From Chloracidobacterium sp. (GTDB lineage: Bacteria; Acidobacteriota; Blastocatellia; Chloracidobacteriales; Chloracidobacteriaceae): DNA of 64,000 nt. Shown here one piece after another: positions 21,459 to 29,224 of this stretch. Location: contig JANWUV010000006.1 in NCBI GenBank assembly GCA_025057975.1, forward strand, positions 1 through 64,000, in the 5' to 3' direction. The notes beneath the pieces are model-generated. The model was not told the origin of the DNA. It searched no databases and saw only the letters and a program-made list of their open reading frames with translations. The position numbers and the translations under genes are program-made. Numbering within the stretch: position 1 is the first letter of the stretch; each line of letters begins with the position of its first letter.

Positions 21459-21674
21459 TATCCGGGCCGGTTGTTAGCGCACAGCGCACACCTGTAACCG
21501 GAAAAATCCAGCTTCATCAGTAACAAATCGTTTACATGGCGGGCATAAGGTTGGCGTCACTCTACACAAACGCATCCGTCACTGATGAACTTTCTTTTTC
21601 ACCGCTGCAAGTCAACCGGGGCGACGCCACGCGCCGCCGGCGACGCAGCCATGGATTCAGGAGTTGGAACTAAT

Positions 21675-24600
21675 ATGCACTTGGATATGACCAGCGCCCC
21701 ATCGCGTCGCGCGATGTTGGCGCTTGCGCTTGGCGCGGCCGTCGGCGCGGCCGCGCTTTTCTGTTTGCCCTGGTCGCGGACAACCCGCGCCGACGCTTCC
21801 TTCAATAGCCGCGTCGCAGTCGCGCCGTCCGCCTTGGCGACGACCACCATGACGACGGTTTATACGGAGAACTTCAACGGCCTCGATGGCGGGCTGCCCC
21901 CCGGCTGGACGGTGCGCACCGGCGCGACAGCGAGTTCACTGGGGACGGCTGCAACCTTCTCCGCAACGCGGATAGATTGGGGAAATACCAGCGGCGCTTT
22001 CAAAAACTTCGCTTCAGCCAACAACTCCGGCTTCAATGCTTCGACGCCGGCCGCTGCGCAGAACAGCGCCCCCGACCGCGCGCTGGGCATCCGGCAGACC
22101 GGCACTTTTGGCGATCCCGGCGCGGCGTTCACTTACCAGCGCGACACCACCGGCGAAACCATTGCCGCCATCAGCTTCGACGCGCAGATGCTGAGCGTCC
22201 AGCCGCGCAGTACGACATGGACGCTCCAGTACGGCGTCGGCGCGTCTCCCACGTCCTTCGTAACGCTGGCGACCTACAACGACCCCGGCGCATGGGGCAA
22301 CACCAACATTTCAGTGACGCTGACGCCGACGCAATCCGCCGAGGTAAGCAACCAGCCGAGCGTATTCTTCCGCGTTGTGGCGCTGACCGACTCAAGCGGC
22401 AGCGGCGCCCGCGACAGCTTCGGCATTGACAACTTCACGCTTTCCAGCGGCGGCCCGCCGCCGACCGCGCCCATCGTGCCTTCCTGCCCCGGCGCGGTTT
22501 CGGCTTTCCAGGGCACAACGGCCGTCGCCTGCGGCTTGAGCGCCACGGACGCCGACAGCATCGTGAACAATGCCGTCGTCTTCAGCGTGACGCCGCCGAC
22601 GGCGGGCTTCTCGATTGTGGACTTCACGCCGGCCGGCGGCGTGGGCGGCACGGCGACGGCGACGCTCCAAATCGCCAACACCGTGCCGACCGGCACATAC
22701 ACGGTTGTTGTTCGCTGGTCGAACAACGACACGCCGACGCCTCAAACGGCGGACTGCACGATTACGGTTAACGTTGTAGCGGCGACACCGGTCATAGCCA
22801 TCAACCAGATTCAGGGCGCCACCAACACCTCGCCGCTCGTCAGCACGGTGCAGACGACGGAAGGCGTCGTCTATGGTCTGCGCAGCAACGGCTTCTTCAT
22901 TCAGACGCCGGACGGTTCTCCGCTCAACGACGGCGATCCAAACACGTCGGAAGGCATTTTTGTCTTCACGGGCAGCGCGCCGCCGGTGCAGATCGGCAAC
23001 CTCGTGCGCGTACGCGGCACGGTGGCGGAGTTCGTGCCGGCCGCCGATCCGCAGCAACCGTCCGTGACACAGCTTTCGGGGACGCTGACGATTGCGCGGC
23101 TGGCGTGCAGCGCGCCGCTGCCGGCTCCGACGGTCATCACACCGACGATTGCCGGTACGCCGTCGGCGCTGGAGCCGGCTCTGCCGCTGCGTTACGAGCG
23201 GTTTGAAGGCATGCGCGTACAGGTCAACCATCTGGCCGTCGTGTCGCCGACCGGCGGGAGCGTGAATGAAACGACCGCCACCGCGACGACCAACGGCGTG
23301 TTCTATGGCGTGGTCGCCGAGCCATGCACCAGTGGGTTCTGCTTCAACCGACCGTTCCGTGAGCCGGGGATTCGTTTCCCGGATACCGTACCGAACGGCG
23401 GCGTGACAGGAACGCTGCCGCCGCCGGCGAACGTTCCCCGCTGGGACGCCAACCCGGAACTCATCCGTGTCTTCAGCACCGGACAGCCGGGGACGACGGC
23501 GCTCAACGTGCCGGCCGGGAATCCTGTGACGTTGCCGGTGGCCGGCATTGTGACCAACTTGATCGGCGCGATGGACTACGCCTTCCGCACCTTCACCATT
23601 TTGCCGGAGGCGGCCAACCCGCCGGTGTTTAGCAATCCCGGTGTGCCCGGCGTCGGCGTTGAAGCGCCGCTTCCGATTGTGCCGCCAAGCAATGTGACGA
23701 TTGCTTCGATGAACCTTGAGCGATTCTTTGACGACCGAAACGATCCGGGGCGCAGCGAGCCGGTATTGACGCCGACGGCCTACACCAACCGGCTCAACAA
23801 GTTCTCGCTGCAGGTGCGGAACGTCCTCCGCAACCCGGATGTCATCGGCCTGCAGGAGGTCGAAGCGCCGACGGACAACCTGCCGGTCGTCATCAACGAC
23901 ATGGCGGCTCGGCTCAACACCGACAACGGCAATCCGACCAACGGCAATCCGAGCCTGCCGTTTTATGTCGGCTACATTTTCCCGACGAACGATGTCGGCG
24001 GCATCGCCGTGGCGTATCTCGTCAACACGAATCGCATTACGGTGGGCAGCGTGACGCAGGTGGGCGCAAGCGACACCTATGTACGCCCCGACGGCTCAAC
24101 AACGATTCTCAACGACCGCCCGCCGATCATTTTGCAAGGGTCGCTAGGGAGTTACGCCTTCACCGTCATCAACCTGCACCAGCGGTCGCTGAATGACATC
24201 GCCACCGGTGGTGCGCCGATCAACGGGTATCCGAATGAGGGCTACCGGGTTCGGCACAAGCGGCAGTTGCAGGCGGAGTTTGTCGCCAATCTCATTCGCC
24301 AGCGGCAGATTAACAACCCGAACGAGCGGATGGTCGTTATCGGCGACTTCAACGGTTTCCAGTTCAATGACGGCTATACGGACATCTACAACACGATTCT
24401 GGGGAACCCACCGACGCCGCCTGCGAGCGGCGCGAACGAGACCCGCGTGGTGTTGGCCCCGACCGGCGCGTGGAATCCACCGACGCCGCCGTTGGTGAGT
24501 TTGACTGGAACAACAACCACTGAAAATAACTACTCATTTCTATTTGACGGCAGCGCCCAGACGCTCGACCAAGTGGCCGTGACGCCGAATGTCGCCAGCG

Positions 24601-25340
24601 AAGGGGCGTATGCCGAGTCGGCGCGCGTCAACGCCGACTTCCCCGAAGTTGACCGCAACAACCCGGCATCGCCGCGTCGGTTGTCCGACCACGATCCGAA
24701 GCGGGTGGTGCTGGTTGTACCGACAGCGACGCCGGTGCTTCAGAACTGCCGCGTGTCGCTCAATGTGGTGAGCAGCGGCTTGTCGGGCAATACGTGCGGC
24801 TTGCCAAACTACGCCGGCGACCTTGTGATCACGTCGGTGCTGACCAACACCAGTTCGCAGCCAATCTCGAATGTCTTCGTGCAGGTCGTTGGTCTGGGCT
24901 ACCCGGACAGCACGCCGACGGGCGTCATTGTCGCTTCACCGAACCCGCATCGTTTGCTGACAGCCGATGGTGCGACATGCAGCAGCGGCGGACAAGCCGG
25001 TGCCAACCAGTCCACCATCAACGGTCAAGCGCCAATCGGCAGTAACACGCCGATTGGGACGCTCAATCCGGGTGACAGCCGGACGCTGACGTTCCGCATC
25101 GCTTTGCCGGCTGTCCGACGGATGCGGTTCTTTGTCAACGTCTTCGGCGTCGGCGGAACGGCCTGCCCAGTGGCATCTAATGAAAGCCGCGCCAACGGCC
25201 CCGTCATGGCGACGACCACGACGATTGACGGCCCAGCGCTGGGCTTTGAGTTGCTGCGCGACAAGGGCGGTGTGACCGTCAAGCCGGTTGAAGATCATTC
25301 GGCAAAGCGCGGCGCAAAGACGGCCGCCGGCCGGCGGTAA
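21675..25340 (+). CDS. Large secreted endonuclease/exonuclease/phosphatase-family protein
   Basis: A 1,221-residue exported protein. AGGAG precedes ATG 21675 and a signal peptide follows (RRAMLALALGAAVGAAALFC). N-terminal region: a beta-sandwich-like domain starting ENFNGLDGGLPPGWTV. Then an Ig-like stretch, and an OB-fold like the YhcR/lamin-tail nuclease type (about 380-480). The catalytic EEP domain spans about 674-1006: ASMNLERFFDD, VIGLQEVE, VINLHQRSLND, VVIGDFNGF, LDQVAVTP and RLSDHDP, all expected DNase I-like motifs. A final beta-rich domain resembles extracellular repeat modules. It likely degrades extracellular DNA (ExeM-type) or phosphoesters for phosphate supply. Single gene with its own terminator. 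Confidence 0.88.
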   Translation: MHLDMTSAPSRRAMLALALGAAVGAAALFCLPWSRTTRADASFNSRVAVAPSALATTTMTTVYTENFNGLDGGLPPGWTVRTGATASSLGTAATFSATRIDWGNTSGAFKNFASANNSGFNASTPAAAQNSAPDRALGIRQTGTFGDPGAAFTYQRDTTGETIAAISFDAQMLSVQPRSTTWTLQYGVGASPTSFVTLATYNDPGAWGNTNISVTLTPTQSAEVSNQPSVFFRVVALTDSSGSGARDSFGIDNFTLSSGGPPPTAPIVPSCPGAVSAFQGTTAVACGLSATDADSIVNNAVVFSVTPPTAGFSIVDFTPAGGVGGTATATLQIANTVPTGTYTVVVRWSNNDTPTPQTADCTITVNVVAATPVIAINQIQGATNTSPLVSTVQTTEGVVYGLRSNGFFIQTPDGSPLNDGDPNTSEGIFVFTGSAPPVQIGNLVRVRGTVAEFVPAADPQQPSVTQLSGTLTIARLACSAPLPAPTVITPTIAGTPSALEPALPLRYERFEGMRVQVNHLAVVSPTGGSVNETTATATTNGVFYGVVAEPCTSGFCFNRPFREPGIRFPDTVPNGGVTGTLPPPANVPRWDANPELIRVFSTGQPGTTALNVPAGNPVTLPVAGIVTNLIGAMDYAFRTFTILPEAANPPVFSNPGVPGVGVEAPLPIVPPSNVTIASMNLERFFDDRNDPGRSEPVLTPTAYTNRLNKFSLQVRNVLRNPDVIGLQEVEAPTDNLPVVINDMAARLNTDNGNPTNGNPSLPFYVGYIFPTNDVGGIAVAYLVNTNRITVGSVTQVGASDTYVRPDGSTTILNDRPPIILQGSLGSYAFTVINLHQRSLNDIATGGAPINGYPNEGYRVRHKRQLQAEFVANLIRQRQINNPNERMVVIGDFNGFQFNDGYTDIYNTILGNPPTPPASGANETRVVLAPTGAWNPPTPPLVSLTGTTTTENNYSFLFDGSAQTLDQVAVTPNVASEGAYAESARVNADFPEVDRNNPASPRRLSDHDPKRVVLVVPTATPVLQNCRVSLNVVSSGLSGNTCGLPNYAGDLVITSVLTNTSSQPISNVFVQVVGLGYPDSTPTGVIVASPNPHRLLTADGATCSSGGQAGANQSTINGQAPIGSNTPIGTLNPGDSRTLTFRIALPAVRRMRFFVNVFGVGGTACPVASNESRANGPVMATTTTIDGPALGFELLRDKGGVTVKPVEDHSAKRGAKTAAGRR

Positions 25341-25364
25341 TGGAAACCATCTTGTTCAGTGTCT

Positions 25365-25396
25365 GCGGGCGGCGGCGATGACCGCCGCCCGCTTTT
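25365..25396 (+). terminator. Rho-independent terminator after the secreted nuclease gene
   Basis: GCGGGCGGCGG (25365-25375) pairs perfectly with CCGCCGCCCGC (25382-25392) around CGATGA, followed by TTTT. It lies 24 bases after the stop codon. Confidence 0.88.
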
Positions 25397-25489
25397 GACA
25401 TGTGGGTTCTCGGCGTACGTTGGCGGGAAACGCCCCCTGCGCCGTTTCAGGTTGTCTTCGAACGTCACTTCAACCGGGGCGTGTGGACG

Positions 25490-25717
25490 ATGACGCGAAA
25501 CAAAACGCTGAAAGAGATCAAAGTGTTGGGATCGACGATGATTGGGTTTGCGGTCGGCGTGTGGTTGTACGACGTCTACAAAGAAGGTGGTTGGGAGCTG
25601 ATGGCGACTGAAGGGTGGAAGGGGCTTGGTGTGGCGCTGCTGATATGGGGCGCACTTATGGTGTCGGATCGCGTTTGGGTGTGGGCGCAAACATTTCTGA
25701 GGAAGAAAGCGCCATAG
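25490..25717 (+). CDS. Small membrane protein, two predicted TM segments
   Basis: A 75-residue protein: a Lys-rich start MTRNKTLKEIKVLG, a hydrophobic stretch STMIGFAVGVWLYDVY, a charged loop, a second stretch GLGVALLIWGALMVSDRVWV and a basic end. The open frame extends upstream to 25400, but that part reads as non-conserved and overlaps the terminator region less plausibly. No family is recognised. First of a run of very small genes. Confidence 0.55.
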   Translation: MTRNKTLKEIKVLGSTMIGFAVGVWLYDVYKEGGWELMATEGWKGLGVALLIWGALMVSDRVWVWAQTFLRKKAP

Positions 25718-25999
25718 CTGGAAAGCACCGCCTCACTCGGTGTACTTCCGCTTAGGTGCAGTAGAGGCGTGAAAGGCGCACAGATGCGCAGGACAGCAAA
25801 GTGAAAAAACTGAGGAACAAGTGAGAACGGCGTTTGGCGGCGGCGTGCGTGGCGAAGTACAGTGGTACCGACGGAGCTTGTCGTCGCCGTTGGTGAGTGC
25901 TAAGAAAAGAAAGATTACAAACAAGTCCGCAGATAAGTTGTCGGGTCTCTGTCGTTGCGCAGCAGTAAGGAACGTTCTGGACATATGCGCAGGTGAAGC

Positions 26000-26197
26000 A
26001 TGCGACTTCAGGTGTGGTTCGTGGGCGGTGTCGAACCGGTTGAGGTTCGCATGGATACAGAAGTAGAGAATGTTGACACCCTTGGCATTTTGTTGTCACA
26101 AGCACGGTGGTTGGCAGTGGATGGAGGCAGGCTGATCAACTTGGCGAATGTACGTATGATTCGCCTCCTTCAACCTGACGAAGCGGGTTGGTCATGA
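26000..26197 (+). CDS. Small hypothetical protein
   Basis: A 65-residue open frame beginning MRLQVWFVGGVEPVEVRMD, with AGGTGA just upstream. The alternation of hydrophobic and charged residues, and an ending ARWLAVDGGRLINLANVRMI that looks like beta strands of a LytTR-type or SH3-like fold, suggest a real protein. A competing longer frame from 25821 in another frame is less protein-like. No function can be given. Confidence 0.45.
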   Translation: MRLQVWFVGGVEPVEVRMDTEVENVDTLGILLSQARWLAVDGGRLINLANVRMIRLLQPDEAGWS

Positions 26198-26222
26198 GCT
26201 GTTGAAGTGGGGAGGGAAGGGT

Positions 26223-26474
26223 ATGCTGTTTGGTAGGAAGCCCAAGAAATCGGCGACACTACTGGAGTACGGTACGGTAACTGGTCAAGTCACCGGCCCC
26301 AACGAAATCAAAACCACCGAGGGGAAGACATATCGGTTGTTTGAGAATCCCATCCATCTCAAAGACACCGAGCCGCGTCCTCTAGATGTTTCAACCAAGT
26401 TGGGCGCAACCATCAAGGTCGCCGGTAGTGTCGGAACCGATGTGGTTTATGAAGCCAAGCTGGTGGCGTCCTGA
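26223..26474 (+). CDS. Small beta-rich hypothetical protein
   Basis: An 83-residue soluble protein starting MLFGRKPKKSATLLEYG, with a strong ribosome site GGGGAGGGAAGGG directly upstream. Repeated valine/threonine strands (GTVTGQVTGPNEIKTTEGKT, ATIKVAGSVGTDVVYEAKL) suggest a small beta barrel, perhaps OB-like. No family is recognised. It sits 25 bp after the previous small gene. Confidence 0.6.
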   Translation: MLFGRKPKKSATLLEYGTVTGQVTGPNEIKTTEGKTYRLFENPIHLKDTEPRPLDVSTKLGATIKVAGSVGTDVVYEAKLVAS

Positions 26475-26651
26475 TAGTCGGCGTGGTGAAAAGCCGGTAT
26501 CGTTGGGCGCAGTCGGCTGCTGATTGAACAGTCACCGCCGGTGGTGGGGGTGTTACTCGTCCCCTGAACCAACAAGTAAACCCTAGGTGGTGCGCTACGC
26601 CTTTCCAGTTGTGCCCGAAGCTAGAAAAGGCGCCGAGGACGGTTCGGCTGT

Positions 26652-26831
26652 ATGAGCATGTCGGTGGTTGAGTTCGTCATTTATGTCATCGCCTACGTTA
26701 CGGTTGGCTTTTTGTTTGTACGCTTCGGGCTACGCACGTCCGAGGGGCCGTTGACCAATACGCAAGCCTTGAAAATCGCACTACCGGTTGGTCTGGCGAT
26801 GGCATTCGCCACGTTGTACTTCAGCGGCTAA
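26652..26831 (+). CDS. 59-residue membrane peptide
   Basis: Read directly from sequence: ATG at 26652 to TAA at 26829-26831. The product starts MSMSVVEFVIYVIAYVTVGF and has two hydrophobic segments (about 4-24 and 40-57) separated by a polar loop RFGLRTSEGPLTNTQALK. This hairpin topology and steady codon use support a real gene, but no clear ribosome site is present and no family is recognised. Confidence 0.5.
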   Translation: MSMSVVEFVIYVIAYVTVGFLFVRFGLRTSEGPLTNTQALKIALPVGLAMAFATLYFSG

Positions 26832-26876
26832 GGCCGTTATGGATTGAGTTTGACTCGCCTGTGTTCGGAGGAACTT

Positions 26877-27068
26877 ATGGGTCAGTACGTACGTGAGCCA
26901 TACGAAGGCTATCTTGGCGGCGCATTCCACAACTACGCCGAGAGTTTCGGGGAACTGATTGTCAGCATCGTCGAAGCGATTGGCGCGTTGCTCAAGACAC
27001 TTGCCGAAGGGGCGATCGCCCTGATTTCGACGCTGATCCAGCCTCAGCCGTCGACACCAGCGGCTTGA
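26877..27068 (+). CDS. 63-residue amphipathic/hydrophobic protein
   Basis: A 63-residue protein with a strong GGAGG site just before ATG 26877. An aromatic N-terminus (MGQYVREPYEGYLGGAFHNY) is followed by one long hydrophobic/amphipathic helix (GELIVSIVEAIGALLKTL and on to ISTLI) and a Pro-rich end. It could be a single-pass membrane or membrane-surface protein. No family is recognised. It lies 45 bp after the membrane peptide gene. Confidence 0.6.
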   Translation: MGQYVREPYEGYLGGAFHNYAESFGELIVSIVEAIGALLKTLAEGAIALISTLIQPQPSTPAA

Positions 27069-27129
27069 AGGCGCGGCCTCGGTGTGGCTGAGGTGAGCGC
27101 GGCGGCGCACGTCGCTTGGCAATGAGTGG

Positions 27130-27786
27130 ATGACTTTGCTGTTTGACGGCCCGGTAGGGCCGTTAGAGGGACTTTACACGCCAGCGCCACAGCCACGGGG
27201 TTGGGCGGCTCTGGTGTGTCATCCGCATCCAGTCTTTGGTGGTACGATGCACAACCGCATCGTGTATCGTACCGCCAAAGCCTTTACGGCGGCTGGCGCG
27301 CATGTCCTGCGCTTTAACTTTCGGGGCGTTGGAGCCAGTCGCGGAAGCTATGACGGCGGCGTTGGCGAGCAAGAGGATGCAGCGGCGGCGCTAGACTACC
27401 TGCACAGACAACACCCCGGCGACCAGCTCGTTGTCGCGGGTTATTCTTTCGGTTCGTGGGTTGGCTTCCAGGCTGCTGTGCGCCGGTCGCACGTTGCAGG
27501 CCTGTTGGGTATTGGCGTCCCGGTCACACGCTTTGATTTTTCATTCTTGCACACTGTCCCATTGCCGAAGCGGATTATTCAAGGCGACGCAGACGATTTT
27601 GGGCCGGTGACGGCGGTTGAAGCTTGGCTATCCCGTTGTCGTGAACCCAAAGGACTGACAGTCGTCGCCGGGGCGGATCATTTTTTTGATGGGCGTCAAG
27701 CGGAGCTTGCAGCGGCGCTCACGGCCGCCGTAGCTTGGTTACAGGAGCGGCTTACCCATGCCCCCGAGCCGGTGCGGCCGGGTTGA
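27130..27786 (+). CDS. Alpha/beta hydrolase (serine hydrolase)
   Basis: A 218-residue alpha/beta hydrolase of the compact type found as stand-alone esterase-like proteins. CHPHPVFGGTMHNRIVYR and RFNFRGVGASRG are the oxyanion and early blocks, GYSFGS holds the nucleophile Ser, GDADDFGP the acid, and GADHFF the His. No signal peptide, so it is cytoplasmic. The substrate is unknown. It follows the small-gene cluster by about 60 bp on the same strand. Confidence 0.9.
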   Translation: MTLLFDGPVGPLEGLYTPAPQPRGWAALVCHPHPVFGGTMHNRIVYRTAKAFTAAGAHVLRFNFRGVGASRGSYDGGVGEQEDAAAALDYLHRQHPGDQLVVAGYSFGSWVGFQAAVRRSHVAGLLGIGVPVTRFDFSFLHTVPLPKRIIQGDADDFGPVTAVEAWLSRCREPKGLTVVAGADHFFDGRQAELAAALTAAVAWLQERLTHAPEPVRPG

Positions 27787-27808
27787 GAACCGTCCCGTGA
27801 GGTATCTT

Positions 27809-28147
27809 ATGTCCACGCCTACGACGAATGCGCCGGGCGTCCCCTCCTCCAAAGCTGCTTCTGAGCCTTATGTCGCGTCAGCCACGCCGGTCACGGCCAC
27901 TGAAACCACCACACAGGTTTTGTACGACGACGCGCCGAGGGACACGGCGGCTGGGAACGCGGAGGAAGAAAGCTTCAAGCAGCTTTTCCAAGATTTTGTG
28001 CTTGGCCGCAACCAGAATCCGGACGACATGCCAGGTCTTCGATTTTACATTGTTTTCGCTGGGATGCTGGCGCTGGCCTTGGTTGGCGTCGCCGCCGTCG
28101 CCACGTTCATCGGCCTCATCCGGTGGGTTAGTGTGTTCTTCCGATGA
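27809..28147 (+). CDS. Single-TM hypothetical protein with disordered N-terminus
   Basis: A 112-residue protein: a Ser/Thr/Ala-rich, probably disordered N-terminal 50 residues, an acidic helix EEESFKQLFQDFVLGRNQNP, then one membrane segment FYIVFAGMLALALVGVAAVA and on near the C-terminus. GAGG lies upstream of ATG 27809. It starts 22 bp after the hydrolase stop, so co-expression is likely. No family recognised. Confidence 0.62.
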   Translation: MSTPTTNAPGVPSSKAASEPYVASATPVTATETTTQVLYDDAPRDTAAGNAEEESFKQLFQDFVLGRNQNPDDMPGLRFYIVFAGMLALALVGVAAVATFIGLIRWVSVFFR

Positions 28148-28180
28148 GTGGGCGTTGCTTCGGTGGCCGTCCCGCCGCCT

Positions 28181-29224
28181 TCACCTACGTCGGTTTGGTA
28201 CAGCGGGCGGTGGAAGTTTGCCCTTCCTAACTACCCAGACGTTGTTGACCAGTCCAGCCGTGTATTCGACCTGCGTCACATTGCCGTTTTTATCCATGAG
28301 CGGGACAAAGAATCTGGCCTCTGTGTCGCTGTCATTCTGATAGGCGACCGGATACAGCCCCCGCACCGGCGACTCGTAGTAAGCCGACGTGTAGTTGCCG
28401 GTCTTCGGGTCAAGCCGGACAACATAAATGCGGTCAAAGTCTGCGACCGGATCGTTGCTGAAAATCTGCTTGTCAAGAATGAAATAGTTTTTCAGGGCGA
28501 TGCCGTTCTTGTCGAGGGTCGTCCCGAAGGGGATGGCGCCAGCGATGCGCCGCCCACCACCGATAATGCCGGCGATGGCGGGCGGCTCAATGAGTTCAAC
28601 CGAGCCGCCGTACAGCCACCCAATCCGGTAGATCGAGTTCTCTGGGAAACGAACGAGATACCACGTATCGTACTTGACGTCGTTTTCGTCCGCGCCCGGC
28701 CTTTCGGATTCATCCGTAACAGGAATGCGCTGTTCCACCCGCCGGCGCTTGAGGATGTCAAATTCTGTACCGCTTTTGAGGACGGTAATGACTTCCGAAT
28801 CGCGGCTGGGTTGCACCCGCAGGCGCGTTTCGCGCTTGAGGCGGCCGCCGATTTGCGGCTGAACAGCGATATTTTCCTGCTCAAGCGCTCGGCAGGCGTC
28901 TAGCAGCCGTTGTAGAACAATGTGCCGCGCCTCAATCCAGCCGACTTTAGATTCGCCTTCCTTTTGAACCTTGGCCCATTCAACGCCGTTGACTTCCGCT
29001 TGGTGATAGATGGCGACTTTGTCGCCTTTCCGGAGTTGCCCAATCTTGGAGTTGACTAGAGCCGTCGAGTTAAACATATCCACACGCTCGGTGATCACGA
29101 CCCCGTCGTCCAGCTTGTCGCCACCGCCAGCGGTTTTCAGGCAGGCCGCCTGTCCGGTTAGGGCAAGCAGAGCGGCAAGCGCAAACAACCAGTGGCGACC
29201 TTGCGGCGGCAAAGTGGGCGACAT
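28181..29224 (-). CDS. SH3-domain lipoprotein-like exported protein
   Basis: A 347-residue protein with an N-terminal hydrophobic segment (HWLFALAALLALTGQAAC) ending in a cysteine that could be a lipobox, although Gln at -3 is atypical. Two bacterial SH3-like modules follow: one around KIGQLRKGDKVAIYHQAEVN to GWIEARHIVL, and a second around RLRVQPSRDSEVITVLKSG. The C-terminal half is unassigned beta-rich sequence ending VEYTAGLVNNVWVVRK. SH3_3 modules bind cell wall or peptides. The start at ATG 29224 is chosen because the signal begins there; the frame stays open to 29398. Divergent from ddl. Confidence 0.75.
   Translation of the reverse strand: MSPTLPPQGRHWLFALAALLALTGQAACLKTAGGGDKLDDGVVITERVDMFNSTALVNSKIGQLRKGDKVAIYHQAEVNGVEWAKVQKEGESKVGWIEARHIVLQRLLDACRALEQENIAVQPQIGGRLKRETRLRVQPSRDSEVITVLKSGTEFDILKRRRVEQRIPVTDESERPGADENDVKYDTWYLVRFPENSIYRIGWLYGGSVELIEPPAIAGIIGGGRRIAGAIPFGTTLDKNGIALKNYFILDKQIFSNDPVADFDRIYVVRLDPKTGNYTSAYYESPVRGLYPVAYQNDSDTEARFFVPLMDKNGNVTQVEYTAGLVNNVWVVRKGKLPPPAVPNRRR

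Follow-up and report, generated by a model that had tools for sequence, protein, structure and literature searches.

Results

A conserved six-gene cluster in a Chloracidobacterium genome

We analyzed a 64,000-nucleotide (nt) stretch of DNA (the window) on contig 6 of a 3.5-megabase Chloracidobacterium genome (G000), and focused on a group of short open reading frames at positions 25490-28147. A sequence-only reading of the window had placed seven frames there, all on one strand; all seven were recovered at the same positions on the + strand, with 75, 65, 83, 59, 63, 218, and 112 codons, and we refer to them as P1-P7 in 5' to 3' order. P2 to P7 (26000-28147) form a cluster of six genes on one strand that is conserved among chlorophototrophic acidobacteria, and three of them, P4, P5, and P7, share the distribution of FMO (PF02327) in the genomes searched. 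The source organism is itself a Chloracidobacterium-like chlorophototroph with FMO, CsmA (PF02043, in a search that covered this genome only), and PscB, which matches 7vzg_B, the iron-sulfur protein of a P840 reaction center. The six genes of the cluster are the following.

26000..26197, + strand: P2, 65 amino acids, no strong hydrophobic segment; invariant WFxG and LINLxxV
26223..26474, + strand: P3, 83 amino acids, modelled as a small beta-barrel resembling an oligonucleotide/oligosaccharide-binding (OB) fold
26652..26831, + strand: P4, 57-59 amino acids, two hydrophobic segments (by reading); FMO-bearing genomes only
26877..27068, + strand: P5, predicted amphipathic helical protein of 63 amino acids; FMO-bearing genomes only
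27130..27786, + strand: P6, alpha/beta hydrolase of 218 amino acids; PF20408 and PF00561 above cut-off
27809..28147, + strand: P7, predicted single-span membrane protein of 112 amino acids; FMO-bearing genomes only

Related genomes numbered 20 in our comparison, the source genome included; among them were six Chloracidobacterium congeners (G001-G006), a member of another genus of the same family (G008), and two family members that lack FMO (G007 and G009). A DNA search of this set matched the cluster in all six congeners and, partially, in four further genomes. Conservation of gene order and reading frame had been proposed as the check on the group, and it was borne out for P2 to P7, which stand in identical order in G001-G006 and G008 (eight of eight genomes with the source, inter-gene spacers of 0-177 nt), but not for P1, which has no congener counterpart. 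Across the eight orthologues the coding frame contains no stop codon, and each of the other sense frames contains 7-44.

The second proposed check, selection on the short frames, indicated purifying selection on P2-P7. Over 21 congeneric pairs, the median ratio of nonsynonymous to synonymous change (pN/pS) was 0.16 for P2, 0.12 for P3, 0.20 for P4, 0.10 for P5, 0.22 for P6, and 0.40 for P7, values that are rough because many pairs are close to synonymous saturation. In the closest pair, G005 and G001, changes fell in third codon positions in 6 of 8 cases for P2, 13 of 18 for P3, 3 of 6 for P4, 16 of 18 for P5, 38 of 43 for P6, and 10 of 18 for P7 (with two gap columns in the P7 alignment); intergenic DNA of the same pair differed in 105 of 686 columns. 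The case for P4 and P7 as genes is carried by protein conservation across genera. Clear Shine-Dalgarno sites had been claimed at 26223, 26877, and 27809; comparison preserved the one before P5, where GGAGGA precedes the ATG in the window and in the six congeners and is shifted in G008, but the stretches before P3 and P7 proved variable. Together, these results support P2-P7 as real genes, and we consider these calls firm.

P4, P5, and P7 occur with FMO

FMO was found in 8 of the 20 related genomes (G000-G006 and G008), and the same search found G007 and G009 to lack it. Profile searches of 58 genomes recovered P4 in eight and P7 in eight, in both cases the eight FMO carriers. A sample of 297 genomes from the phylum contained P5 in four, which are also the four FMO carriers in a sample of equal size; the two samples agree as far as listed. 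P5 also occurs in G002, G003, G004, and G008, which its sample leaves out. Scanning a collection of genome contigs with two exact P5 peptide patterns returned four loci, on contigs equal in length to those of the same four genomes, in a scan that catches close relatives only, did not return G001, G005, or G006, and possibly omitted records close to the window. At the G007 and G009 locus, only scattered matches to P4, P5, and P7 were seen (E ≥0.05), and profiles found none genome-wide. P4 and P5 lie between P3 and P6 in the FMO-bearing genomes, and P7 lies behind P6. Among the genomes searched, P4, P5, and P7 thus occur only where FMO does; with FMO as a stand-in marker for chlorosomes, every holder was FMO-bearing.

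A tree of concatenated P2, P3, and P6, rooted on the G018 hydrolase, joined G008 to G007 and G009 (support 89), apart from Chloracidobacterium (67). Because the outgroup branch is very long and the root not firm, we did not use this tree to distinguish gain from loss of P4, P5, and P7. The public record of G008, a genome with both P2-P7 and FMO, is titled Actinomycetota, yet its scaffold name is Acidobacteria.

Sequence features and predicted structures of P4, P5, and P7

The sequence-only reading had called several of the products membrane or amphipathic. Our analysis gave two hydrophobic segments in P4 (by reading), a predicted amphipathic helix in P5, and one predicted membrane span in P7. 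The start of P4 is most likely the second ATG, at 26658, because this codon aligns with the starts of its relatives. Between its two hydrophobic segments P4 has a conserved FGLRxxxGPL turn, and its hydropathy maximum is 2.38, at residue 5. Its best matches to solved chains were weak (8tib and 6nav, E 0.33-0.35), and we took them to be chance; a Pfam match to DUF1467 (E 0.11) was far below cut-off.

P5 has 41 of its 63 residues invariant across the eight orthologues, and its median pN/pS is below that of the five other genes. It was modelled as a single helix (residues 10-54, mean predicted local distance difference test score, pLDDT, of 76), and residues 16-45 are predicted to be amphipathic, with a moment of 0.44-0.47 and, on average, positive hydrophobicity in windows that start at residues 16-28. 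Foldseek found no match to this model at E ≤10. Residues 35-51 resemble melittin (Pfam E 0.09, with two of eight members at E ≤0.1; solved melittin chains, E 0.54-0.61), which is probably a general likeness among amphipathic helices, and we rejected it as a relationship.

In P7, a variable acidic N-terminal half is followed by ESFxxL...FVxGxxQxP...PGLRFY and then by the predicted span, with a hydropathy maximum of 2.58 at residue 86. A match to 9f5x (E 0.22) was judged to be chance, and one to NCBIfam NF041620 (E 0.011) reached 15.4 of the 200 bits needed. Nothing in the P4, P5, or P7 alignments scored above a Pfam cut-off. The claim that none of the products belongs to a known family holds for P2-P5 and P7, which have no Pfam, NCBIfam, or PADLOC match above cut-off, but not for the hydrolase, which falls into a known group. 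As to toxin-antitoxin and defense families, P1-P5 and P7 had no Pfam or NCBIfam match above cut-off and no PADLOC match at E ≤0.1.

P2, P3, and the hydrolase P6 form a wider core

P2, P3, and P6 are also adjacent in the FMO-lacking genomes G007 and G009, where the gap between P3 and P6 is about 120 and 285 nt, and their combined identity between these two genomes and the FMO-bearing ones is 52-58%. The P2 profile matched 10 of 58 genomes and the P3 profile 6 of 297, G007 and G009 among them in both searches. The P2-P3-P6 core is independent of phototrophy.

P2 matched no Pfam or NCBIfam family. P3 was modelled as a small five-strand barrel (pLDDT 81) that retrieved many OB-like entries among the VIA structure rows at Z about 4.3-5; these rows are what we take to be the OB folds of PriB, RPA, SSB, and IF-1. 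The best Foldseek match had E 0.29. An OB-like fold for P3 is only suggested by the model, because the Foldseek result is weak, Z values near 5 are common among unrelated folds, and no family matched above cut-off. Other weak matches of P3 and its relatives were dismissed as chance (3meq, E 0.36) or as far below cut-off (PilY2, best E 0.047, in two of ten members; DUF348 in one).

Judged by its sequence, P6 is an ordinary alpha/beta hydrolase. It scored 38.8 bits against PF20408 (cut-off 27) and 38.4 bits against PF00561 (cut-off 25.8), and its nearest solved chains, 2i3d, 3trd, and 2fuk, align over nearly its full length (E 5e-49 for 2i3d, up to 4e-38). The motifs G-[YF]-S-F-G, D-x-F-G, and H-[FY]-F, located by reading, are present in all eight orthologues and in G007 and G009, and by analogy they would supply the predicted nucleophile elbow and the catalytic Asp and His. 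Assignment to SglT (NCBIfam) was rejected at 57.6 bits, far short of the cut-off of 300.

A conserved element precedes P2

Upstream of the cluster we found one further conserved feature.

25834..25905, + strand: upstream element, promoter-like TTGGCG, 18 nt, TACAGT, then GTGGTAC ... CTTGT ... GAGTGCTAAGA

The blocks GTGGTAC ... CTTGT ... GARTGCTAAGA lie about 100-170 nt 5' of P2 in seven Chloracidobacterium genomes and are preceded by a promoter-like pair, assigned by reading, of TTGGC (TTGTT in G003), a spacer of 17-18 nt, and TA[ACG]AGT; a consensus promoter scan, which demands more matches, listed no promoter. The pattern GTGGTAC...GARTGCTAAGA occurs as a single copy at the same place in seven of seven Chloracidobacterium genomes and in none of 13 others, and a reversed-pattern control gave zero hits. 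Before P2 of G008, G007, and G009, the two ends of the element were not seen. The element is thus conserved in sequence, and the RNA structure that it might form is putative and unproven. RNAalifold pairs both conserved blocks, with two-sided changes in 3 of 11 pairs, in an alignment that misplaces an insertion in G006. Compared with shuffled sequences, the leader folds clearly better in G004 only (z -4.9); the other six genomes gave z between -1.45 and 0.31, a range that includes the unusable, wrong-strand fold of G006. An Rfam scan of 25300-28300 returned two matches, both far below their gathering scores.

P1 and the region upstream of the cluster

Two features lie 5' of this element.

25490..25717, + strand: P1, hydrophobic frame of 75 amino acids, a doubtful gene outside the conserved cluster
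25365..25396, + strand: terminator-like hairpin with 11 perfect pairs, a loop of 6 nt, and TTTT; follows an upstream frame of 1251 amino acids

P1 has no counterpart in six of six congeners, and among the 20 genomes it was found in its own only, apart from one weak match in G019 (E 4e-4, 37% identity) within a frame of 356 amino acids that reads like a membrane protein. P1 was rejected as a cluster member and left out of the gene count because it is not conserved. The strong terminator that had been described before the group is present as a hairpin, in which 25365-25375 pairs with 25382-25392, but by direct reading only four T follow, and a mechanical scan that requires five or more T left it out.

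The flank further upstream (21585-25340) varies among the congeners. A large frame occupies it in the source genome (1251 amino acids) and in G004 (1177 amino acids), at 84% identity; the other five congeners have frames of 344-366 amino acids, dehydrogenase-like by reading, and opposite-strand frames of 429-499 amino acids.

Elsewhere in the source genome, the frames adjoining fmoA read as PscB and PscA, the former with the match to 7vzg_B given above and the latter assigned by reading. A frame that reads as an ArsA-like ATPase (locus L061, 2962-4275) also adjoins fmoA. A second such frame, again by reading (locus L062, 1798-3027), immediately precedes csmA and is itself preceded by a UbiA-like frame, possibly chlorophyll synthase (L062, 806-1783).

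Discussion

CsmA, FMO, and the type I reaction center are common to acidobacterial phototrophs and green sulfur bacteria. PMC9316378 describes CsmA as the sole chlorosome protein with similarity across three phyla, assigns CsmV, CsmR, CsmS, CsmT, and CsmU to the envelope of C. thermophilum chlorosomes, and presents the remaining antenna proteins of acidobacterial phototrophs as having no relatives in other phyla; according to PMC10972752, conservation is poor among chlorosome proteins apart from CsmA. Because these proteins are described as poorly conserved or not shared among phyla, missing family matches are to be expected of them. The acidobacterial reaction center contains the small subunits PscU, PscV, PscW, and PscZ and an unassigned polypeptide (UPP), of which PscU, PscV, and PscW have one membrane span each (PMC9751088 and PMC10968294). 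Our literature search for small, hypothetical, or phototrophy-specific Chloracidobacterium proteins listed none.

We tentatively favor, at somewhat less than an even chance, the interpretation that P4, P5, and P7 serve acidobacterial phototrophy as accessory proteins of the membrane or of the chlorosome envelope and that their genes were set into an older small operon. Such a role agrees with their small size, their hydrophobicity, and the genomes in which they occur. P5 would lie on a membrane or on the chlorosome lipid monolayer, P4 and P7 would sit in the cytoplasmic membrane, and the three might help to assemble or hold the chlorosome, FMO, and reaction-center apparatus in an accessory or structural capacity. 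The membrane location, a common transcript, and any part in photosynthesis are inferred. The sequence-only reading had presented very small genes around a hydrolase; it saw the group, but missed both the phototrophic, chlorosome-bearing nature of the organism and the fact that a P2-P3-P6 core has been joined by the FMO-tracking P4, P5, and P7. Bolder still would be the proposal that P4, P5, and P7 are three undescribed parts of the photosynthetic apparatus, for example membrane and envelope proteins that tether the chlorosome and FMO to the reaction center and were lost or left unassigned at purification, which we regard as unlikely.

Several observations weigh against a photosynthetic accessory role. 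P5 is not a recognizable relative of CsmA (hhalign probability 0.4% against the CsmA of its own genome), and none of P4, P5, and P7 matched a deposited reaction-center chain at E ≤1 (P4 by phmmer only, P5 and P7 by phmmer and profile), in a comparison in which the PscB control matched 7vzg_B. No photosynthesis gene was recognized among the other frames of the window by reading, with no family scan of the neighbors made. Codon usage, examined as a mark of high expression, gave no signal for the small genes, in a test that is powerless because the photosynthesis genes themselves lack distinct usage. In the closest genome pair, P4 and P7 have the least third-position bias of the set (3 of 6 and 10 of 18). 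The link to FMO is co-occurrence within one family, which may reflect one evolutionary event; it stands without a genome-wide background of similarly distributed genes, and 38 of the 58 genomes of the P4 and P7 searches lie outside the 20-genome FMO search. The three proteins could equally serve the envelope in general.

This last thought leads to a different account: P4, P5, and P7 would be envelope or stress proteins specific to the lineage, without a direct photosynthetic role, and their FMO pattern would be one of shared descent. All FMO-bearing genomes found belong to two genera of one family, the neighboring frames do not read as photosynthetic, and the FMO-lacking relatives are just 52-58% identical in P2, P3, and P6, so that many genes may differ between the two groups. 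Yet the three genes lie within or directly behind a core that is otherwise kept, they accompany FMO in every case among the genomes searched for both, and P5 is, by median pN/pS, the most constrained of the six. We consider shared descent quite possible, though not an even bet. Placing all six genes in one functional unit around P6, such as a lipid- or ester-processing module with P4, P5, and P7 as membrane partners, would account for the order of P2-P7 being kept in eight of eight genomes with spacers of 0-177 nt. The idea is improbable in our estimation: G007 and G009 have P2, P3, and P6 but not the other three, and relatives of the hydrolase occur without them in G014, in G018, and among solved structures.

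The proposal that P4, P5, and P7 are accessory proteins of phototrophy has a variant, not exclusive of it, in which at least one of them is an already named protein of C. thermophilum, that is, CsmR, CsmS, CsmT, CsmU, or CsmV. Being small, hydrophobic, and confined to genomes with FMO, the three would fit this set as it is listed in PMC9316378. We nevertheless find the identity rather doubtful: CsmR-CsmV were compared by description only, and in our literature search PMC9316378 was the only paper to link CsmV with the chlorosome.

Comparison with known systems

Among the core proteins, P6 is like the alpha/beta hydrolases of the Atu1826 and XC6422 type (2i3d, 3trd, 2fuk) over nearly its whole length, with nothing notable that is different. 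The P3 model is like OB-fold proteins in being a small five-strand barrel at Z about 5, but differs from them in that Foldseek gave E ≥0.29 and no sequence family was above cut-off.

With the reaction-center small subunits PscU, PscV, PscW, and PscZ and with UPP, the proteins P4, P5, and P7 have in common that they are small and come from the same type of organism; a comparison with UPP itself is impossible, its chain being a polyalanine model. With the chlorosome envelope proteins (CsmA and CsmR-CsmV) they share small size, a hydrophobic or amphipathic character, and hosts that all bear FMO. They differ in that P5 is unlike the CsmA of its own genome and that P4, P5, and P7 have no Pfam match above cut-off (PF02043, the CsmA family, matched no member of their alignments at E ≤0.1). 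The finding concerns candidate parts for a known kind of apparatus: P4, P5, and P7 are short, constrained genes and concrete candidates for the part list of the acidobacterial antenna, which can be tested in a cultured strain.

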